A stretch of DNA of 20,119 nucleotides from positions 1 to 20,119 of the IMG/VR virus record IMGVR_UViG_3300006638_000032; one strand, written 5' to 3'. The notes under the pieces were generated by a model. It did no database searches. It was not told where the DNA came from and saw nothing but the letters and a program-made list of their open reading frames with translations. The position numbers and the translations under genes were made by a program. Numbering within the stretch: position 1 is the first letter of the stretch; the number at the start of each line of letters is the position of its first letter. This document shows, one piece after another, positions 7,813 through 20,119 of this stretch. This stretch comes from a virus.

Positions 7813-8492
7813 TAGTGCGTCCGATTCCTCAACTGGTTATACCGATACAGACGGTTCGCGATGCTCCAGCCTGTGCGGTGGGCTGCTTTAGTGATTGCAC
7901 GCCGCCTTAGCAGCATCCTGCTTCGTAGATACAGCCGACGTAGATGTGCGGCGAGCGTCTTGCGTGCGATGATTTTGTCCCACTCACGGCACCAGTTCAC
8001 CTCGTCTCCTGGCTGCCAAGTGTCTGATGCGCTCGCAAAGAACGTGTCCTTGCACCAGCTGATGTCGAGGTTCCGGCCGAGCGCTTTGTCATACCATTGG
8101 GTTGCGTCGGAGCCTGGCTCGATGTGCGGTACTCCTGTGTAGTGCGCTGTCCAGACTCGGTACTGGCTGCGCGGGATACCACTCTTTGTCAGAGCCGCTA
8201 CAACAGACGGCATCGTTGAAGAGTTCGCGTAGAAGCACGGCAGCTTTTTACCAAGCTTGATCTGGCGCCGATACCAAGCAGGAGCGTCAGCCGGTGTCCC
8301 GTCTCCGGTCTCCACGTCGAGACAGTCAGCATCCTCACCCGAGTCCACTGCGATCGAAAGCAGGTGCGCGTGCGGGAAGCGTTGGGCGAGGACAGGGAAG
8401 GTCGGATATAACCCCGTTGTGTACCCAGCAACGGCTTCAGCAGTCACGGGTATCTGCGAAACATCAACGCTGTCGTACATTGTTATGGTCAT
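7812..8492 (-). CDS. Glycoside-hydrolase-like putative lysin with basic tail
   Basis: The first ~165 residues resemble the TIM-barrel glycoside-hydrolase-like domain related to GH25 and DUF1906 found in phage and actinobacterial proteins. Visible are YDSVDVS (Asp7, Asp10), the acidic strand end CLDVETGD with Asp59 and Glu61, PCFYANSSTM, RVWTAHYTG and DATQWYDKALG. Such proteins probably cut peptidoglycan glycans. The last 54 residues contain 16 Arg/Lys and no acidic residue, a strongly basic helical tail. I chose the ATG at 8492, which has GGAGGT five bases upstream. A GTG at 8567, overlapping the previous stop as GTGA, would add 25 residues. No signal peptide is seen. Confidence 0.75.
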   Translation of the reverse strand: MTITMYDSVDVSQIPVTAEAVAGYTTGLYPTFPVLAQRFPHAHLLSIAVDSGEDADCLDVETGDGTPADAPAWYRRQIKLGKKLPCFYANSSTMPSVVAALTKSGIPRSQYRVWTAHYTGVPHIEPGSDATQWYDKALGRNLDISWCKDTFFASASDTWQPGDEVNWCREWDKIIARKTLAAHLRRLYLRSRMLLRRRAITKAAHRTGWSIANRLYRYNQLRNRTH

Positions 8493-8563
8493 ACTGTACC
8501 TCCATTCCATTACGTACCAAGGATGCTGGTCGGTGGCCTCAGGGATCATGCTGGAGAAGCCGG

Positions 8564-8752
8564 TCACGTGCTCACCGGCCCGATGAACTCGACGTTGGTG
8601 AGTTCCTCATGGCGCGCTTTCTTGAGCTTATCGCGCATAGCTTCCATCAGAGCGTTGGCTGCGGCGTACTCGGCGCCAGGCACACAGGTCAAGTCTAGCT
8701 TGATTTGCTTGGTTCCTACAATGAGCACCAGTGCGCAATCTAGATTACCCAT
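8564..8752 (-). CDS. Small protein of unknown function (62 aa)
   Basis: No family recognised. The ATG at 8752 has a GGGGG run six bases upstream and lies inside the end of the previous gene, a 13-base overlap. The N-terminal half alternates hydrophobic residues (CALVLIVGTKQIKLDLTCV), suggesting a beta hairpin. A helix around residues 26-48 follows. It lies just before the lysin-like gene and after a gene of a widespread phage family. Confidence 0.65.
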   Translation of the reverse strand: MGNLDCALVLIVGTKQIKLDLTCVPGAEYAAANALMEAMRDKLKKARHEELTNVEFIGPVST

Positions 8753-9045
8753 TCGCTACCCCCGACACTTCTCGTCAGGCTATCCGGCCATACGTCGCTG
8801 TTCTCCAAGCGCTTCCGTTCCTCGTAAGGTTTGACGACGCGCTCGATCAGGTCGAGCTTGGCGCCCTCCAGCGCCCCGAGGCATTCAGCCAGCGTCTGAT
8901 ACTTCAGCTCGTGGCCCTTTATGAATGCGAGCAGGTTTTGTTGTAGCTGGTATGTCAGCTCGCCGGCGTTCAGTGCGCGGCGCGAGCGAGCCGGCAAGTC
9001 TGGGTCGCTTAGTCGATCGCGGGTGTGTGGGTCAACGTAGGGCAT
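8740..9045 (-). CDS. Conserved phage protein of unknown function, DUF6899-like (101 aa)
   Basis: The pattern matches a small family very common in phages: it begins MPYVDPHTRDRL, then has NAGELTYQLQQNLLAFI, YQTLAECLGALEGAKLDLIERVV and PYEERKRLENSDVW. From memory this corresponds to DUF6899; I could not check. The fold looks all-helical and the function is not known to me. The ATG at 9045 directly follows the TAG of the previous gene; CGGAGG lies nine bases upstream. Confidence 0.75.
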   Translation of the reverse strand: MPYVDPHTRDRLSDPDLPARSRRALNAGELTYQLQQNLLAFIKGHELKYQTLAECLGALEGAKLDLIERVVKPYEERKRLENSDVWPDSLTRSVGGSEWVI

Positions 9046-12271: not shown

Positions 12272-12687
12272 GGGCGGTCATCCGTTCCAATGCTGCGCTT
12301 TACGAAGGCGAGCAGTGCTAGGCAATGCCTCTCAAGGTACTGGTTTACCTGCTGTAAACGCATGTCCTCAACTTTTCCAACTAACGTATTACAGCGCGCA
12401 CAGAGCAAGCCACGCACCTCGTTTGTTGCGTGATCGTGATCGACGTAAAGATCGTAGCTAACAGTTTCGTCGCACGCCCAACAGGCACCGTTGTGTTGGA
12501 GTAGAAGATCTGCATACGCCTCTAGCGTCAACCCGTAGCGCGAGCGAAGTTGTCGCTCTCGCTCTGAGCGAACTGGAGGAAATATGCCTTGCTTTACCGC
12601 TGAGATACGTTCCCCTCTGGTCATATCTTTCATTCGCTTGCCGCGGAGCTTTGTAAGGTCGTGTTTAGGTAGTCTAGAGGGATACAC
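12268..12687 (-). CDS. Recombination endonuclease VII (first copy)
   Basis: Endonuclease VII cleaves branched DNA and mismatches and clears junctions before packaging. The core is clear: RYGLTLEAYADLLLQHNG, then CWAC (Cys69, Cys72), VDHDH (metal and catalytic site, 82-86), GLLCARCN (Cys96, Cys99) and the following helix. I suggest GTG at 12687 as start (139 aa), overlapping the previous stop by 14 bases. GGAG is rather far upstream, and ATGs 18 and 21 codons further in are possible. The basic N terminus precedes the nuclease domain. A second endonuclease VII gene lies two genes upstream. Confidence 0.85.
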   Translation of the reverse strand: MYPSRLPKHDLTKLRGKRMKDMTRGERISAVKQGIFPPVRSERERQLRSRYGLTLEAYADLLLQHNGACWACDETVSYDLYVDHDHATNEVRGLLCARCNTLVGKVEDMRLQQVNQYLERHCLALLAFVKRSIGTDDRP

Positions 12688-13465
12688 TGCGATCGTCTTT
12701 CTCCGGGTACTGCTCCTCAAAACGCATTAGCGCTAGGAGGTGAAAGATAGCCGACGCTAGATGGTGACATTTTGTTTCGGAATCAAGCGACTCGTGATCT
12801 TGCCAAAACATCTTCATGTGTCGGTGTGCTGAAGCGAAGGAGAGAGACCACGCATACCCAAGCTCCCAATTTCTCGGCTCGTACTTTTCTGCGCCGCACC
12901 CATACAGTTCAGCTAGCTTATCAAGTTGATCCCAAGGAAGCAAGTCATAGCGTTGAATCTTGCTCCCCTTCTGGCCGCCTGTCTTTGGGTCTGTGACCCT
13001 TATCTCGTGAGGATCGTCTCGGTATGTATCTGGTACGAACTCCATTTCTTGTATTTCTTTTGTTCGATCGGTTAGGTGTTTGTAACTTGCCTCCTCATGT
13101 CCGTGGGCGTGGTCGATGCGGTTTGCGTGGATCTCGTCCAGCGTCGGGTATTCGAGTAGCGGCAGCCCGCATAAACGGGCAACGTATGTCTCTAGTTTTC
13201 CGCCGCGTGAGCGTTCCCACCCTGGTAGGCAGATGATCGCGTCGATTGCTCCGTCTGCGATGAGCTTTACGTCGCGGGCTAGTAGGTCTCCCCAACTGTC
13301 GTTTGCTGCGTAGTGTGAGGCGTCGCCGGTTAGGGACTCTTCGGCTGCTTTTTTCGCTTCTGGTGAGTCGAGCTCTGCGGGTGAGGTTATTTCCCAGCCT
13401 CGTTTCCGTAGCTCTTTTGCTGCTGCGTGAAACAGCGGGAAATTGAAGTGTGGAATGTGTGTCAT
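12674..13465 (-). CDS. DUF4406-like domain fused to a dATP/dGTP diphosphohydrolase-like domain
   Basis: Residues 6-106 resemble DUF4406, related to nucleoside 2-deoxyribosyltransferases: FPLFHAAAKELRKRGWEITS, WGDLLARDVKLIADGAIDAI and CLPGWERSRGGKLETYVARL. Residues 155-256 resemble the MazG-related dATP/dGTP diphosphohydrolase N-terminal family (DUF5664): RYDLLPWDQLDKLAELYGCG, GAEKYEPRNWELG, AHRHMKMFW and the metal-site-like ESLDSETKCHHLASA. The second domain would cut purine dNTPs to monophosphates, adjusting the pool beside the polymerase. The joint (107-154) carries YPTLDEI, repeated in another gene. The ATG at 13465 has no strong ribosome site. The 39 bases before it hold nothing obvious. 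Confidence 0.8.
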   Translation of the reverse strand: MTHIPHFNFPLFHAAAKELRKRGWEITSPAELDSPEAKKAAEESLTGDASHYAANDSWGDLLARDVKLIADGAIDAIICLPGWERSRGGKLETYVARLCGLPLLEYPTLDEIHANRIDHAHGHEEASYKHLTDRTKEIQEMEFVPDTYRDDPHEIRVTDPKTGGQKGSKIQRYDLLPWDQLDKLAELYGCGAEKYEPRNWELGYAWSLSFASAHRHMKMFWQDHESLDSETKCHHLASAIFHLLALMRFEEQYPEKDDRSVSL

Positions 13466-14059: not shown

Positions 14060-14475
14060 ACTACCTCCTGTAGTTCGTTTCGGGTCAAGTAGTATTGGAG
14101 ATGTAAGAGAGCGTCAGAAGCGTGTCCGCTCTTATTGTCCTTCCACTGAATGTGTCGCGCCTTGCATTGCCGGCGTGTTGGGTTCTTGATGTCAGCACCT
14201 TGCATTACGACTTCCACCGTTGCCTCGGCCGCTATCCAGCGCATCGCCCCGATCATTTCACTCGTCGTCATTGGAGACCATGATTGCGCTGAAGCCTTTC
14301 CTGGATATAGGACAAACTTCTCGATTATCACTACGTCGGCGCTCTTTATCATCCGCCTAAATAGAGGCAACCACATCTCGGCATCGATCTCTGTAGCGTC
14401 GATCTCCTCTCCCCCATGCCAGGTCGCGACGCCTACGTGCGCTCCCCCGGGATCTACTGCGATAACGCATTTCAT
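14056..14475 (-). CDS. RuvC-like Holliday junction resolvase
   Basis: The protein shows the RNase H-like fold of phage RuvC-type resolvases. The first strand VIAVDPGGAHVGVATW carries Asp8, VVIIEKFVL carries Glu52, and the C-terminal helix SGHASDALLHL has His118 and Asp121, together forming the acidic metal site. It would resolve recombination or replication junctions. At 139 residues it is short but typical of phage versions. The ATG at 14475 overlaps the polymerase stop as ATGA, with GGAGGT nine bases upstream. Two endonuclease VII genes follow, so junction processing is well covered here. Confidence 0.85.
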   Translation of the reverse strand: MKCVIAVDPGGAHVGVATWHGGEEIDATEIDAEMWLPLFRRMIKSADVVIIEKFVLYPGKASAQSWSPMTTSEMIGAMRWIAAEATVEVVMQGADIKNPTRRQCKARHIQWKDNKSGHASDALLHLQYYLTRNELQEVV

Positions 14476-16319
14476 TTCACGTACACCTCCAGATCCACAG
14501 TCATCGGAGTATCGAATAAGGCACTTGCTCGCTCGGCGGCTTTATCAGCCACCTTTTGAGCTGTTTTTTTCGCGGTGCGTTTAGGGAGCTCAAGCACCAC
14601 ACTATCATGTACGGTCAGTACGAGTGCGCCTGGCACCTCGCGCTCGATTTCAACTAACCACAACCGGAGCCACGCTGCCAGCGACCCTTGCACCATTCGG
14701 TTCCACCCGGTATGCGGCCAATCCCCGTCAGCGAGATACGACTTGCTCTCGTACTCGGTCCCTGGCAGTATTCTCACGTATCCACGCTCACGGAACACGC
14801 GCTCGGCTCGCCTGTAAGCGGCCATGATCTCGGGATATGTTCGACGCCAGTCTGCAACCAAACGGTCACACTCCGCTACCTCTAGTTGAAGGTCTGTTTC
14901 CCGTGTGAGTAGTGCTTGAAAGCTCTCACCGCCGATACCGAAGATCGCGCCGAAGGTCAGCTTCTTACCGATGTCTCGCTTGAGCTTCCATTCGGGATGG
15001 TCGCGCCCTACGTGCATTACGTCTTCGGTTGCTTTGCCGTGGAAGTCAACTCCCTCGTTTAGCATCGTCAGCATCTTCTCACACTCACTGTACTTTGCGG
15101 CGCACCGAAGCTCGGCCTGTGACATGTCCAGCGAAATCAAACTGCATCCCTTCTTAGCGAGTAGCAGTTCCCGAACGCCGACCATCCCCTCCTCGATCTT
15201 GTCGCCTTTGGGCATTGCTTGCAGGTTTACGCGCTCGGCCGACAGCCGCCCTGCCCTTGATCCACTATCACCACCGTCATCTCGTTGCTTCGTTTGTCGG
15301 TAGCGGCACCGGAGCCTCCCGTCCTCCCCGAGCTTCTCTGCATATCCCCGATACCACATTGAGGCTGCGCGTTTGGCTTTGGTTGCATCGCGGTACTCGG
15401 CAGCCCACTGGGCGCCTTCCTCTGCCCAGTCGCGGATCTGCTCTTTGTCGATCGACGGGGCTCCCTTTGGGGTCGTGCGGTCAACTGTTAGCCCTTGCTC
15501 TAGAAAGTATCCTCTGGCGCCGGCTGGCGTTAGTTTGAAGGGTAGGCGCGCGACAATGTCAGCGCACTTTTGTTCCATCTCCTCAGCTGCCAACAGGGAT
15601 CGCTCGGCGTCGTAGCCTAGCCCGCGCTGCTCCATTCTCATCAGCACCACCGCTAGGTCGAACTCGCGCCGGCACTCTCGCAGGCGACGCTCTCGCTCGA
15701 TGGCTGGATCCTCCTTGAAGTGGCGTACCTGTTCTTCGTACAGCGCCAGTGTTGTCTCAGCGTCCCCTCGCACATACGGCTCAATAACATGCCAGGGCGC
15801 TAGGTCGTAGCGTCCCTTCGGCTTTTTCGCTGTTCGTAGCCAATCCTTTACCTCATCTAATCCTTGCTTTCCTCCTACTCCTAGCTCTCGTGCGGCGTTG
15901 TCTAGTCCGGCTGAGCTGTTGGGTCTGAGTATGCGGTGCGCGATCATCGTGTCCCAATGGAGCATGTCACCTAAATCGGCCCCTTTCCAATGTCGGGTTC
16001 CGGCTGCGAGCATAATCAGATCGAAGCCGGCATTGTGGAACACGAGTCGTTTGCTGCGGAGTAACCACAGCAGCTGTTTCCACTCGTGCTCGTCGAGATT
16101 AGGGTCCTCTTCGGTGTCCTCGAAAGTGAACTGACCCGTTTGTTTCTCTTCCTTGTCGCGGTCACCTTGATCGAAGGGTAACGCGAGGCTCCCGCCCTCC
16201 CAGGCGCAGGCTACGCACGAGACGCGCGCTCCGTCATCTGGAAATAATCCGTTGCTCTCGCAGTCCACAGCTACTACGTCAGCGGCCGCTAGTCCCTCCC
16301 AGTCGTACTTCTGTTCCAT
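14472..16319 (-). CDS. polA: DNA polymerase I with 3'-5' exonuclease domain
   Basis: Family A replicative polymerase (615 aa), without a 5'-3' exonuclease domain. The proofreading domain has Asp19 and Glu21 (VAVDCESNGLF), Asp100 (FHNAGFD) and Asp186 (YVRGDAETT). The polymerase domain has AGRLSAERVNLQAMP (356-370), motif A SLDMSQAEL with Asp398, motif B KRDIGKKLTFGAIFG (447-461) and motif C VHDSV with His571-Asp572. Phe456 corresponds to E. coli Phe762 and Phe460 to Tyr766, as I align them. Position 762 has been linked to phage lifestyle, Phe being usual in virulent phages. The start overlaps the methyltransferase stop by one base (TAATG). Confidence 0.95.
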   Translation of the reverse strand: MEQKYDWEGLAAADVVAVDCESNGLFPDDGARVSCVACAWEGGSLALPFDQGDRDKEEKQTGQFTFEDTEEDPNLDEHEWKQLLWLLRSKRLVFHNAGFDLIMLAAGTRHWKGADLGDMLHWDTMIAHRILRPNSSAGLDNAARELGVGGKQGLDEVKDWLRTAKKPKGRYDLAPWHVIEPYVRGDAETTLALYEEQVRHFKEDPAIERERRLRECRREFDLAVVLMRMEQRGLGYDAERSLLAAEEMEQKCADIVARLPFKLTPAGARGYFLEQGLTVDRTTPKGAPSIDKEQIRDWAEEGAQWAAEYRDATKAKRAASMWYRGYAEKLGEDGRLRCRYRQTKQRDDGGDSGSRAGRLSAERVNLQAMPKGDKIEEGMVGVRELLLAKKGCSLISLDMSQAELRCAAKYSECEKMLTMLNEGVDFHGKATEDVMHVGRDHPEWKLKRDIGKKLTFGAIFGIGGESFQALLTRETDLQLEVAECDRLVADWRRTYPEIMAAYRRAERVFRERGYVRILPGTEYESKSYLADGDWPHTGWNRMVQGSLAAWLRLWLVEIEREVPGALVLTVHDSVVLELPKRTAKKTAQKVADKAAERASALFDTPMTVDLEVYVK

Positions 16320-17001: not shown

Positions 17002-17661
17002 TCAGAAAAGATTACCTTGCCCAAGGCGCCTGGCCGCTACCTCGCAGTACTTCTCTTCACGCTCTACACCGACAGCACGCATTCCTAAATCCTTCGCGGC
17101 GCGTAGAGTTGTGCCGCTCCCCATGTAAGGGTCACAGACCATGCGAGTGTCGTCAGCTAGAAATTTCAGCGTCCAGAGCATAACTTCTAGTGGCTTCTGT
17201 GTCGGGTGGAAGCGTTCTTCCTTGCGATTCTTCTTGAACATTCCCTTCCACTCATGTTTTATGAGTCGCACCGCCATCGGTAGATCGGTCCATGCTAGCT
17301 CACAGTCAGCGTACGTGTTTGCTCCTGTCTCCTTGTCCCACACGAGCCAACCTGATTGCGGCGGGAGCACGAAGTAGTTCCCGCCCCAAAAGATGTGCTG
17401 CTTGCTAAGTTTGAGAAGCTGTCTGAAGTCCTCCGGTGTTGGCGGCTCCTGATCCCAGTCGGTGGCTCCGTAATCAATGCTGGCGGCCAACGCCGCTCCG
17501 CCTTGCACGTTTGCTCGGAGCGCCTGTGTCGTATCAGCTCCAATCCCGTACGGAGGGTCTGTAACTACCGCGTCGATCGGGAGCGCCTTCAACTCCGCGG
17601 CGGCATCGTGCCAGTCGGCGCAGAATATGGTTACGTGCTCGTCCTCGTAGTATGGCTTCAT
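17002..17661 (-). CDS. DNA methyltransferase, N6-adenine/N4-cytosine type (second of two)
   Basis: Same class and order of motifs as the gene that follows it in transcription: DPPYG at 35-39, FHPTQKPLE at 151-159 and CDPYMGSGTT at 176-185. The 219 residues include IDYGATDWDQEPP (62-74), which may lie near the target-recognition region. The ATG at 17661 overlaps the stop of the winged-helix gene as ATGA. The pair looks like a duplication that has diverged, probably with different target sites. The target bases cannot be read from the sequence. Confidence 0.9.
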   Translation of the reverse strand: MKPYYEDEHVTIFCADWHDAAAELKALPIDAVVTDPPYGIGADTTQALRANVQGGAALAASIDYGATDWDQEPPTPEDFRQLLKLSKQHIFWGGNYFVLPPQSGWLVWDKETGANTYADCELAWTDLPMAVRLIKHEWKGMFKKNRKEERFHPTQKPLEVMLWTLKFLADDTRMVCDPYMGSGTTLRAAKDLGMRAVGVEREEKYCEVAARRLGQGNLF

Positions 17662-17885
17662 CTCAGCGCATCTTTGAGTATCCAGCGGTCTTCTTCTACT
17701 CCGTGCGCGCCGATCTTTCGTTCATGGTCTACGTCGGCTCGCATGGCGCGTATGGCGTTGCGTACTCGTCGCCGGGACCAGCCTAGCTGGCGGGCTAGTT
17801 CGCTTGTGTTCCCCCACCCCGATCCGAGCGGCTTCAGCAGCGTTTCACAGTCTTTGGGTCGCTTCTGCTCTCTGTGCTCAAACAT
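17658..17885 (-). CDS. Small winged-helix-like DNA-binding protein (75 aa)
   Basis: Residues 24-50 (WGNTSELARQLGWSRRRVRNAIRAMRA) form a clear helix-turn-helix with a basic recognition helix, followed by a short wing-like segment and ERKIGAHG...EDRWILK. It probably regulates transcription or takes part in replication initiation. The ATG at 17885 has GGAGG six bases upstream and overlaps the previous gene by 8 bases. Together with the upstream winged-helix protein it lies just after the GGGGACA array, so either could bind that array. Confidence 0.75.
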   Translation of the reverse strand: MFEHREQKRPKDCETLLKPLGSGWGNTSELARQLGWSRRRVRNAIRAMRADVDHERKIGAHGVEEDRWILKDALR

Positions 17886-18234
17886 TCGTGTCCTCCGTTA
17901 GTCGGCAGATGATAGCTTTTCCGACACCTGATCGCTGCTCGAAGCTGAGCTTACCTGCTTGCTCTAGCTGAGCTAGCGCGAGAGAGCCGCCGGAAGGGTA
18001 GCACCCGACATGAAGGTAGACCTGCGACTTGTTTAGGCCGTCAGGGTGTTCTTTCAAAGCTCTCAGGATTCGCGGCTTCAGCGCTACCTCTTCTCGTGCC
18101 TGACGTTTAGCTTCTTTCTCTTGAGACTTCTGAGCTTGCTTGAGGCGCCGTAGGATCTCTTGGCGAGGAATCTCAACCGTGACTTGCTCACCATCGTACG
18201 CGATGGTTTCGTACTCTCGTTTGAGCTCTTCCAT
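17878..18234 (-). CDS. Winged-helix-like DNA-binding protein (118 aa)
   Basis: The first 30 residues form a small beta/helix segment, residues 28-50 are a Lys/Glu/Arg-rich helix, and residues 53-110 fit a winged helix: LKPRILRALKEHPDGLNKSQ, then GCYPSGGSLALAQLEQAGKL as recognition helix, then SFEQRSGVGKAIICRL as wing. It is the first gene after the regulatory gap and may control its own message or bind the repeats there. The ATG at 18234 has AAAGGAG five bases upstream, directly after a small hairpin. Confidence 0.75.
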   Translation of the reverse strand: MEELKREYETIAYDGEQVTVEIPRQEILRRLKQAQKSQEKEAKRQAREEVALKPRILRALKEHPDGLNKSQVYLHVGCYPSGGSLALAQLEQAGKLSFEQRSGVGKAIICRLTEDTNV

Positions 18235-18247
18235 TTCAATCTCCTTT

Positions 18248-18260
18248 AGGGGTGTCCCCT
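18248..18260 (-). promoter_or_regulatory. Leader hairpin just before a ribosome site
   Basis: aggggtgtcccct is a 5-bp stem with a 3-base loop that ends just before the AAAGGAG ribosome site of the gene starting at 18234. A second, near-identical hairpin lies at 18291-18304. In the RNA they could hide or present the ribosome site or act as a protein-binding site. The loop and right arm coincide with TGTCCCC copies, so they may instead be DNA operators. Confidence 0.45.
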
Positions 18261-18323
18261 CTAAAACCCATGATTTGCGGGGGATTCGTTAGGGGTGTCC
18301 CCCTGCGCATCAAAATGATTCAT
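18261..18323 (-). other. Possible 20-residue leader peptide
   Basis: An ATG at 18323 is preceded by AGGGGG eight bases upstream (part of a repeat copy), and the frame runs to a TAG at 18261, giving a peptide that starts MNHFDAQGDTPN. It would end just before the leader hairpin of the winged-helix gene. No homology is recognised and chance is quite possible. Confidence 0.2.
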
Positions 18324-18416
18324 AAAATTGTCCCCCTATAAAGTGCTGATTTGCAGGGATTTCGTGATTGTGTCCCCCTTCTTGGCAGATATGCTCGTCT
18401 ACGTAGGTAAAAGCTA

Positions 18417-18453
18417 CTTGTAGTAATATCTAATGATTATATACTACTACAAG
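18417..18453. repeat. 9-bp inverted repeat around a -10-like box
   Basis: CTTGTAGTA at 18417-18425 pairs with TACTACAAG at 18445-18453 across 19 AT-rich bases. The spacer contains the best minus-strand -10 candidate, so this looks like an operator that brackets a promoter, or an unwinding element of an origin. Confidence 0.65.
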
Positions 18454-18465
18454 CAAGATTCTCAC
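18436..18465 (-). promoter_or_regulatory. Candidate promoter for the leftward replication operon
   Basis: On the minus strand TATAAT (18441-18436) is a perfect -10 box, with GTGAGA (18465-18460) 18 bases upstream as a partial -35 (four of six matches). Transcription would start near 18430 and give a leader of about 195 bases before the ATG at 18234. That leader would contain all four left-side repeat copies. Confidence 0.45.
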
Positions 18466-18559
18466 GTTATAGTATTTTGATGGGGGACATGGGGACAAAT
18501 GGGGACAAACTCTATATTATGTATGGGTCTGTATGGGGACAGAAAAACGCGAATTCGGC

Positions 18560-18874
18560 TTACTGGGGGACATACCACTGATCCACGTCTTTCTGTTCTT
18601 TCTGACGCCTCTCCTTGTCCGCTGCTCTATGGCAAGGATCACACAACCACTCAACATCGAGAGGCTTTCTATAGTCGGTGTGATGCGCTGATATTCTTAC
18701 GGTTTTTCCCTGCAAACGCCACCAATCTGCATCTCCGCAGTTATCACAAATGTTGGGTCTCGCTAGCTCTCCTTCCTTGATTGCACGCGCTACTTGATTC
18801 ATCGCACGACCCTGCGGATCTCTGCTCTTCTTTAGTCCTCGCGCCGTTTGAATGTAAACGCCCGATAAAGACAT
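18560..18874 (-). CDS. Small HNH-like zinc-binding protein (104 aa)
   Basis: Residues 43-85 match a short HNH-like zinc domain frequent in phages: ICDNCGD (Cys43, Cys46), VRISAHHTDYRKPLDVEWLC with His63-His64, and CDPCHRAAD (Cys78, Cys81, His82). It may be a nicking or homing-type nuclease, or only a zinc-binding DNA protein. The ATG at 18874 directly follows the previous TAA and has GAGAGG six bases upstream. A GGGGACA copy lies in its last codons. It is the last gene before the control region. Confidence 0.75.
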   Translation of the reverse strand: MSLSGVYIQTARGLKKSRDPQGRAMNQVARAIKEGELARPNICDNCGDADWWRLQGKTVRISAHHTDYRKPLDVEWLCDPCHRAADKERRQKEQKDVDQWYVPQ

Positions 18875-19747
18875 TTAGTGCCTCTCGTACGACTGTGTGA
18901 AGCCGGTTTCGGTCAGCAGCTCGCGGATGTCGCTCCCCTTCCGACTCATCAGACAGGACTCCGTAAAGGGGCATCGCCAACCACATCTGTCCGGATCCGG
19001 CGAGCGCGGCGGCAGTATGTCCCCCCCCTTTGCCCCCCTAACATGTCCCCTATACGCCGACCTAAACGTCTGGAGCGCCTCGCCAGCCATCGTCTCCAAC
19101 TCACGGTCTGTTCGGACCGTGTACTCGCGTCGGAAGCGCTCGTCGAGCGACATATCACGCTTCAGTTTTTTGGTTCGGCAAGCGTTGTATATCACGCCTC
19201 TGATGTCGTGCCCTTGCCGTTTCAACAACCACATATATATCCCGAACTGGTCATCGAAGTCGAGCGCCTTCTGCTTCGGGAGTTCGGAGCACGTCTTATG
19301 GTCTACGATCCACAGTCCGCCGCCGGCTGAGTGATCGCGTACGAGCAGGTCTACGATGCCCTTGAGCTTGAATGTAGACCTCCGCCCGTTAGGTGTCCGC
19401 AGCCAATCCTCTACTCGCTGCTCGACCGCTAGTATCTCCCACTGCGAGTCATCCCCCCATTGCTCTATGTAGCCATCGAACATCCAGCGCACTAGCTCGG
19501 TCTCCTCGTTTTCGTCGGCTGCGTCAAGTATTGCGTACGGGTCTCCGGTCTGCATTACCCCACCACCATCATGCGTTGCGACTTTTGTGCTGTAGTAAGC
19601 CTCCATCACGCTATGAAAGAGCTTGCCGCGCGACAGCGCTGCGCTGATTGTCTCAGGCTGCCACCGCTCCTGATAGCTCAAATAACTCTTCAACTTACAT
19701 TGACGTATCGCATCCAACTCACTATAAGAAACCACGTGCGTACTCAT
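18875..19747 (-). CDS. Cas4/RecB-like iron-sulfur exonuclease (PD-(D/E)XK)
   Basis: The nuclease motifs are in order: SYSELDAIRQC (Cys17), RGKLFHSVMEAY with His45, FKLKGIVDLLV with Asp133, LWIVDHKT with Asp149 and Lys151, and DDQFGIYMW with Gln167 and Tyr171. Cys17 with Cys255, Cys259 and Cys265 makes the four-Cys set that holds an iron-sulfur cluster in Cas4 and AddB. Phage versions probably resect DNA ends for recombination. There is no CRISPR array or cas1 in view. The start at 19747 is set by an ATGA overlap with the MazG-like gene; the longer frame to 19816 is rejected. The coding strand contains two GGGGACA copies near 19018-19050. Confidence 0.9.
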   Translation of the reverse strand: MSTHVVSYSELDAIRQCKLKSYLSYQERWQPETISAALSRGKLFHSVMEAYYSTKVATHDGGGVMQTGDPYAILDAADENEETELVRWMFDGYIEQWGDDSQWEILAVEQRVEDWLRTPNGRRSTFKLKGIVDLLVRDHSAGGGLWIVDHKTCSELPKQKALDFDDQFGIYMWLLKRQGHDIRGVIYNACRTKKLKRDMSLDERFRREYTVRTDRELETMAGEALQTFRSAYRGHVRGAKGGDILPPRSPDPDRCGWRCPFTESCLMSRKGSDIRELLTETGFTQSYERH

Positions 19748-20061
19748 ACCAGCCCCGAATCCATCAGCAACGTCAGGTACTCCATCCACGCGACCGACAG
19801 AGCAGCGACCTGACACAGCTCCTTGTGCAGTGCTACTAGAGATGTGTCCCCGTCTGTTACAAGCCCCTCACTTGCGAGCACGTCGCGACCCACCTCACCA
19901 ACCTCCTCTATGATGCAGGCGAGCTTTGCGAGCTCTGGCATCTCCCTGTCTGCGAGCGTGTATCTGAAGCGCCCCTCGGCCTTCAACTGCGCTTGCCGTC
20001 CTCGCTCTATATAGACAATCTCCAACTCAGCTCCGGTTGGGTCTGTTGGGAACGTAGTCAT
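19744..20061 (-). CDS. MazG-like nucleotide pyrophosphohydrolase (105 aa)
   Basis: Residues 15-95 resemble the small MazG/NTP-PPase-like family found in phages: IVYIERGRQAQLKAEGRFRY, then LAKLACIIEEVGEVGRDV with the EExxE-type metal site (Glu52, Glu53, Glu56), and LHKELCQVAALSVAWME with Glu81 as a further acidic ligand. It would hydrolyse nucleoside triphosphates to monophosphates. The ATG at 20061 has AAGGTG five bases upstream and overlaps the previous stop as ATGA. It is the first complete gene in the window and probably works with the other MazG-related enzyme at 12674-13465. Confidence 0.75.
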   Translation of the reverse strand: MTTFPTDPTGAELEIVYIERGRQAQLKAEGRFRYTLADREMPELAKLACIIEEVGEVGRDVLASEGLVTDGDTSLVALHKELCQVAALSVAWMEYLTLLMDSGLV

Positions 20062-20119
20062 TGAGACACCTTCGCGTCACCGTACACCCACGCGTTACCG
20101 TACACCTTCGCGTTACCGT
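20058..20119 (-). CDS. C-terminal end of a hexapeptide-repeat protein (partial)
   Basis: The last 62 bases contain a tandem repeat of 18 bases. Read on the minus strand, it gives GNAKVYGNAWVYGDAKVSQ and then a stop that overlaps the MazG-like start as ATGA. The V-Y-G-N/D-A-x pattern is that of left-handed beta-helix (hexapeptide) proteins, which often carry many such units and occur in phage and bacterial proteins of poorly known function. The rest lies outside the window. Confidence 0.75.
   Translation of the reverse strand, partial: GNAKVYGNAWVYGDAKVSQ

Follow-up and report, generated by a model that had tools for sequence, protein, structure and literature searches.

Phage genome and repeat array

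The DNA analysed here, a window of 20,119 nt, is tailed-phage DNA that encodes a portal-MuF fusion, a large terminase, a family A DNA polymerase (PolA), an exonuclease and methylases. The IMG/VR contig 3300025862_000001 (G001; 55,862 bp) represents the same phage, being 99.97-100% identical. The window crosses the ends of this contig, which share 127 bp, indicating that the genome is circular or circularly permuted and approximately 55.7 kb in length. In G001, the repeat array that is our subject (Table 1) is preceded by genes encoding a Sak4-like annealing protein, a DUF669-like protein, a methylase, an 829-aa PrimPol/PriCT/helicase protein (hereafter the primase-helicase), a beta-solenoid protein, an exonuclease and an HNH protein, and is followed by those encoding two winged-helix proteins, methylases and PolA. 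The primase-helicase gene (G001 44973-47462), whose primase is an AEP Prim-Pol domain (3e-21), lies outside the window; the array is located approximately 2.3 kb beyond it, with the exonuclease and HNH genes between. The gene for the 267-aa beta-solenoid protein (YdcK/hexapeptide-like; G001 47528-48331) includes an 18-bp tandem repeat, at window 20066-20119, that probably broke the assembly at the window end. Elsewhere in the window (12674-13465), DUF4406 is fused with a dATP/dGTP diphosphohydrolase N-terminal domain, and related phages have genes for PurA-like adenylosuccinate synthetases close to PolA, hinting at modified DNA bases.

The array comprises nine exact copies of GGGGACA within 320 bp, arranged as two inverted arms (four sites on the left, five on the right) that face each other across an AT-rich core, where the lowest 50-bp window has a GC content of 26% vs. 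58% for the locus. The last site falls within the HNH gene, at its 3' end, which gives the array a slight overlap with coding sequence. A preliminary description of this DNA had reported these nine sites and five additional copies (at 2897, 4698, 19018, 19044 and 19845) as an excess over chance; all were confirmed, and the resulting 14 copies in the window compare with a mean of 2.12 and a maximum of 6 in 100 dinucleotide shuffles. The 16 copies in G001 consist of the nine in the array, two in the exonuclease gene and five elsewhere, the last being approximately the chance rate; thus, the motif is not spread evenly over the genome, whereas an even spread is what the same description had named as counter-evidence. 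Dispersed operators (stoperators), for which one site recurs at many places in a phage genome, were rejected, given that the motif is near chance in G001 outside the array and the neighboring gene.

Within the core are an imperfect inverted repeat, which is weak as a DNA hairpin (z -1.96), and a sigma-70-like promoter candidate, a class for which two candidates were found vs. 1.1 expected. Cumulative GC skew, which the preliminary description had suggested as a check, showed no turn at the array in G001, and Rfam gave no match. Separately, three G-rich sites 13 bp apart occupy glycine codons of the exonuclease gene (window 19018-19050), and a relative, L286, has GGGGGTCGCGAGAGGGGGTCA at the matching place; these sites probably reflect coding constraint.

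Table 1. Features of the array and of the neighboring replication genes, in window coordinates
Feature	Position	Strand	Remarks
Whole iteron array, proposed replication origin	18253..18572		Same layout in G002, with GGGGTCA
Iteron GGGGACA (+ strand reads TGTCCCC)	18253..18259	-	Exact match
Iteron GGGGACA (+ strand reads TGTCCCC)	18296..18302	-	Exact match
Iteron GGGGACA (+ strand reads TGTCCCC)	18329..18335	-	Exact match
Iteron GGGGACA (+ strand reads TGTCCCC)	18371..18377	-	Exact match
AT-rich core, proposed melting region	18378..18482		Low GC
Imperfect inverted repeat in core	18417..18453		Two 18-nt arms, 89% complementary, 1 nt between
Sigma-70-like promoter candidate in core, GTGAGA-18-TATAAT, towards winged-helix genes	18436..18465	-	Consensus match only
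Iteron GGGGACA	18483..18489	+	Exact match; first of tight triplet
Iteron GGGGACA	18491..18497	+	Exact match; triplet spacing 8 and 10 bp, as in G002
Iteron GGGGACA	18501..18507	+	Exact match; last of tight triplet
Iteron GGGGACA	18535..18541	+	Exact match
Iteron GGGGACA, within 3' end of HNH gene	18566..18572	+	Exact match
Family A DNA polymerase, downstream end of replication module	14472..16319	-	
75-aa helix-turn-helix protein	17658..17885	-	Weak HTH_29 match, under curated cut-off
118-aa winged-helix protein, possible local regulator	17878..18234	-	Predicted MarR/ArsR-like fold; only here and G002
HNH-type endonuclease-like protein	18560..18874	-	phrog_2340, 2e-15
PD-(D/E)XK exonuclease (Cas4/RecB-like), between primase-helicase gene and array	18875..19816	-	

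Arrays in related phages

A relative of this phage, G002 (contig 3300037222_000058), encodes a PolA and a primase-helicase that are 74% and 83% identical, respectively, to those described above, and carries the homologous intergenic gap between the same two flanking genes, with GGGGTCA as its motif. Its triplet TTGACCCC-GGTTGACCCC-ATGACCCC is spaced by 10 and 8 bp, as is TTGTCCCC-ATTTGTCCCC-ATGTCCCCC in this phage; its other arm has three full sites at similarly wide spacing, and an inverted repeat lies at the centre. Between the two phages, the layout is retained and one base of the site is changed. The preliminary description had taken a lack of conserved sites in relatives as evidence against its proposal; the array is indeed conserved, but the site sequence drifts, so absence of the sites misleads as a test. 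The G002 exonuclease gene (L002 5491-7374; G002 32804-34762) is open throughout (652 aa) and contains an in-frame insertion resembling an intein. The contig of L286, a 60%-identical relative, ends directly past its exonuclease gene in repeated GACCCC (L286 9320-9358), apparently the first sites of its array.

Among named phages, 147 records contain a protein homologous to the 829-aa primase-helicase. The long gap after the primase-helicase gene, or between divergent operons, often holds a repeat of its own, in or near the interval between PrimPol and PolA: GGGTAAC in Hiyaa and Galactica, GTTCAC in Sapo and Ghobes, TGCTAGA in Zanella, TGCTAAA in Milani, GGATAC in LazerLemon and GATACA in Microdon. 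Most of these arrays scored above all 200 shuffles of the same gap; that of Korra was not significant alone by this measure, and Parvaparticeps had no array in the gap tested. Bacterial genomes almost entirely lack the primase-helicase family, with three matches that are partial and distant, which fits virulent phages.

An IMG/VR search with a 13-member alignment yielded 80 loci, 51 of which were used for a test of array position in which the strongest both-strand 7-mer window was located blind to gene position. This window was unique to the primase-helicase stop codon in 27 of the 51 loci, vs. a mean of 2.07 and a maximum of 9 for random anchors (200 trials); as some loci are interrelated, these are not 27 independent events, although their iterons are widely different. 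The other 24 loci fail this strict test, with an array farther off, a higher-scoring coding tandem repeat or no clear array; G001 and G002 themselves count as failures, because their arrays lie approximately 2 kb or more from the primase-helicase gene. Almost all lineages have a 7-mer of their own (GGGTAAC, GGGTACA, TGCTACA, CAGAACA and others). A universal NNNNACA consensus was considered and rejected: many iterons end in ACA, but TCACAAC, TGGTAAG, CATATG and TGCTAGA do not, leaving only a tendency.

In a spaced-triplet scan, other phages also proved to contain dense clusters of GGGGNCA, N mostly being the same base throughout one phage; several clusters adjoin other kinds of primase-helicase: PrimPol with AAA_25, Toprim with AAA_25, and D5. 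Among the IMG/VR matches listed, a primase-helicase was present within 5 kb of 14 of 42 GGGGACA clusters that included opposite-strand copies, of one of 76 that did not, and of none of 116 reversed-motif control clusters, a comparison of cluster quality, not abundance, that is not fully independent because some tblastn queries came from motif-found loci. Very dense GGGGTCA arrays (at least 15 copies) occur in GC-rich phages (L010 10835-11194, L013 2692-3059 and L352 near 8450-8950); that in L013 overlaps a gene matching DUF2637.

On the anatomy of the arrays, the following figures are descriptive rather than a blind test, as motifs and regions were picked after inspection. In 26 non-redundant arrays, 62 of 102 same-strand neighbor spacings were 13 bp or less (random mean 24.9, maximum 38), and the longer ones cluster near 22, 33, 44 and 55 bp, a phase of approximately 11 bp (R 0.48) that none of 500 random placements equaled. 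A stretch in the lowest 10% of GC for its own locus accompanies 20 of the 26 arrays, and sites flank the core on both sides in 30 of 33. Strictly divergent arms were rejected as a defining feature, with ten arrays opposite and seven the same.

A probable origin and a probable initiator

We consider it likely, judging from sequence arrangement and analogy, that the array is the replication origin of an autonomous phage with the layout found in SaPIs and PICIs, the self-loading primase-helicase being its probable initiator. The preliminary description had raised an iteron origin, a proposal now strengthened by synteny and by the comparable arrays that dozens of related phages carry; its impression of an unrecognised kind was half right, as the layout is that of SaPIs and PICIs but the replicon is an autonomous phage. 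The assignment as an origin draws on synteny, recurrence, spacing and analogy, and the steps of initiation are inferred. The C-terminal winged helix of the 829-aa protein would bind the 7-bp iterons of both arms; the protein would load there, assembling as helicase rings on each side of the AT-rich core; the core would be melted open; and replication would start at this place, with the primase-helicase priming both strands for the family A polymerase that the phage itself encodes.

AlphaFold2, given 33 aligned C-terminal regions, predicted a winged helix at the primase-helicase C-terminus (mean pLDDT 82). The best Foldseek match of the predicted C-terminal model was SaPIbov1 Rep (8tch), a weak one (E 0.11, probability 0.85), and VIA-align gave similarly weak scores of Z 5.0 over 207 residues to 8tch and 4.9 over 203 to SCCmec Cch (5dgk); these two are the solved structures that match most of the model. 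A DUF927 sequence match in five of 13 family members (best 1.9e-5) points in the same direction as the weak fold matches. Two sequence searches of the PDB returned only the ORF904 PrimPol, at E 0.014 at best, and one chance match. The preliminary description had linked the array to the two adjacent winged-helix genes, a connection that did not hold up: no phage other than this one and G002 was found to carry the first gene, and elsewhere the arrays are followed by unrelated small genes, some arrays lying directly before PolA. As a general binder, an adjacent winged-helix protein was rejected for this lack of conservation with the arrays; the pair beside the array probably does not fill that role, and the predicted C-terminal winged helix of the primase-helicase is the better candidate.

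In near-isogenic pairs, the predicted recognition helix differs where the iterons differ by one base. For instance, between L353 and Milani one helix residue changes from A to Q and the iteron from TGCTAGA to TGCTAAA, the proteins differing elsewhere too. An amino-acid-to-base code in this helix was tried and is not claimed, because a partial Mantel test across 34 phages found no significant effect of helix similarity beyond phylogeny (partial r 0.056, p 0.21).

Could the array instead be a multi-site operator, at which a repressor, perhaps the 118-aa winged-helix protein, would control a core promoter driving the downstream operon? The predicted MarR/ArsR-like fold of this protein, the position of the first site 19 bp from its start codon and the promoter candidate pointing to its gene are all consistent with such control, but the gene was found in two phages only, arrays elsewhere precede unrelated genes or PolA itself, the motif occurs about as often as chance predicts in the rest of the genome, and the arrays associate with primase-helicases; we therefore regard an operator as unlikely. 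Iteron plasmids autoregulate from their own iterons, and the promoter candidate lies within the core, so that an origin at which the initiator or the adjacent winged-helix protein also controls the operon through the same sites might be envisaged; it is quite improbable, most arrays being downstream of the initiator gene rather than at its promoter. A non-functional or selfish repeat, such as a G-rich slippage product present by chance in an intergenic gap, would suit short, G-rich sites but is already disfavoured, and is extremely improbable, in view of the inverted arms, the spacing conserved in G002 despite a changed motif, the 11-bp phasing and the fact that other lineages have, at this position, repeats of their own that differ greatly in composition.

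The origin assignment is directly testable, because the named relatives include Arthrobacter, Microbacterium, Streptomyces and Gordonia phages that are in culture. Further, the near-isogenic one-base pairs GGGGACA/GGGGTCA, TGCTAGA/TGCTAAA and GGATACG/GGATACA offer material for studying how initiator and origin specificity change together.

Comparison with known replicons

No report of these phage origins was found in the literature searched. The closest parallel is the origin of PICIs, in which two sets of iterons flank an AT-rich region (PMC6092414), and of SaPIs, in which the C-terminal domain of Rep is reported to recognise iterons directly downstream of rep (PMC7581432). Like the array described here, the SaPI/PICI origin (SaPIbov1 Rep, PDB 8tch; PMC6092414, PMC7581432) has short iterons in two sets with an AT-rich region between them, and its iterons vary between elements. 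It is placed 3' of, or close after, the gene for a primase/helicase initiator, a position seen immediately after the gene in 27 of 51 family members, whereas in this phage the exonuclease and HNH genes intervene; Rep likewise combines a DUF927-like helicase with a C-terminal DNA-binding domain, a likeness suggested here by weak matches and a predicted fold. In contrast to a satellite island, the present replicon belongs to an autonomous phage, which encodes its own PrimPol-helicase fusion as well as a family A polymerase; its 7-bp sites are phased at 11 bp, and its array is 2.3 kb from the initiator gene. Nor does the window resemble a PICI element itself, a helper-dependent satellite, as it encodes its own portal-MuF protein and large terminase.

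Other systems share part of this arrangement. The SCCmec Cch2 operon, with AAGTG direct repeats (PMC7581432), also has a helicase that loads itself and, through a C-terminal domain, binds short repeats lying downstream of its own gene, but has three iterons only, a D5-type helicase and a different type of element. ORF904 of pRN1 (PMC4234260) similarly joins PrimPol, helicase and a C-terminal winged helix, with the origin just downstream of its gene; that origin is a stem-loop of approximately 100 nt from which iterons are reported to be absent (PMC4234260), whereas here there are iterons and a weak core hairpin (z -1.96). Phage P4 alpha, as described in PMC4234260 (citing Ziegelin and Lanka, and Yeo), likewise unites in one protein a primase, a helicase and a winged helix that binds the origin by recognising its repeats; it differs in its Toprim-type primase (here AEP Prim-Pol), its iterons and its being from a satellite phage.

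Tentatively, we postulate one origin grammar, consisting of short lineage-specific iterons, helically phased arms and an AT-rich core near a primase-helicase gene, that may be common to phages with DUF927-like, AAA_25/RepA-like and D5 initiators, while the iterons of close relatives drift one base at a time. If so, sequence alone could reveal the origins of many uncultivated phages, and the PICI origin, which has been described as exclusive to PICIs, would represent a phage-type replicon.
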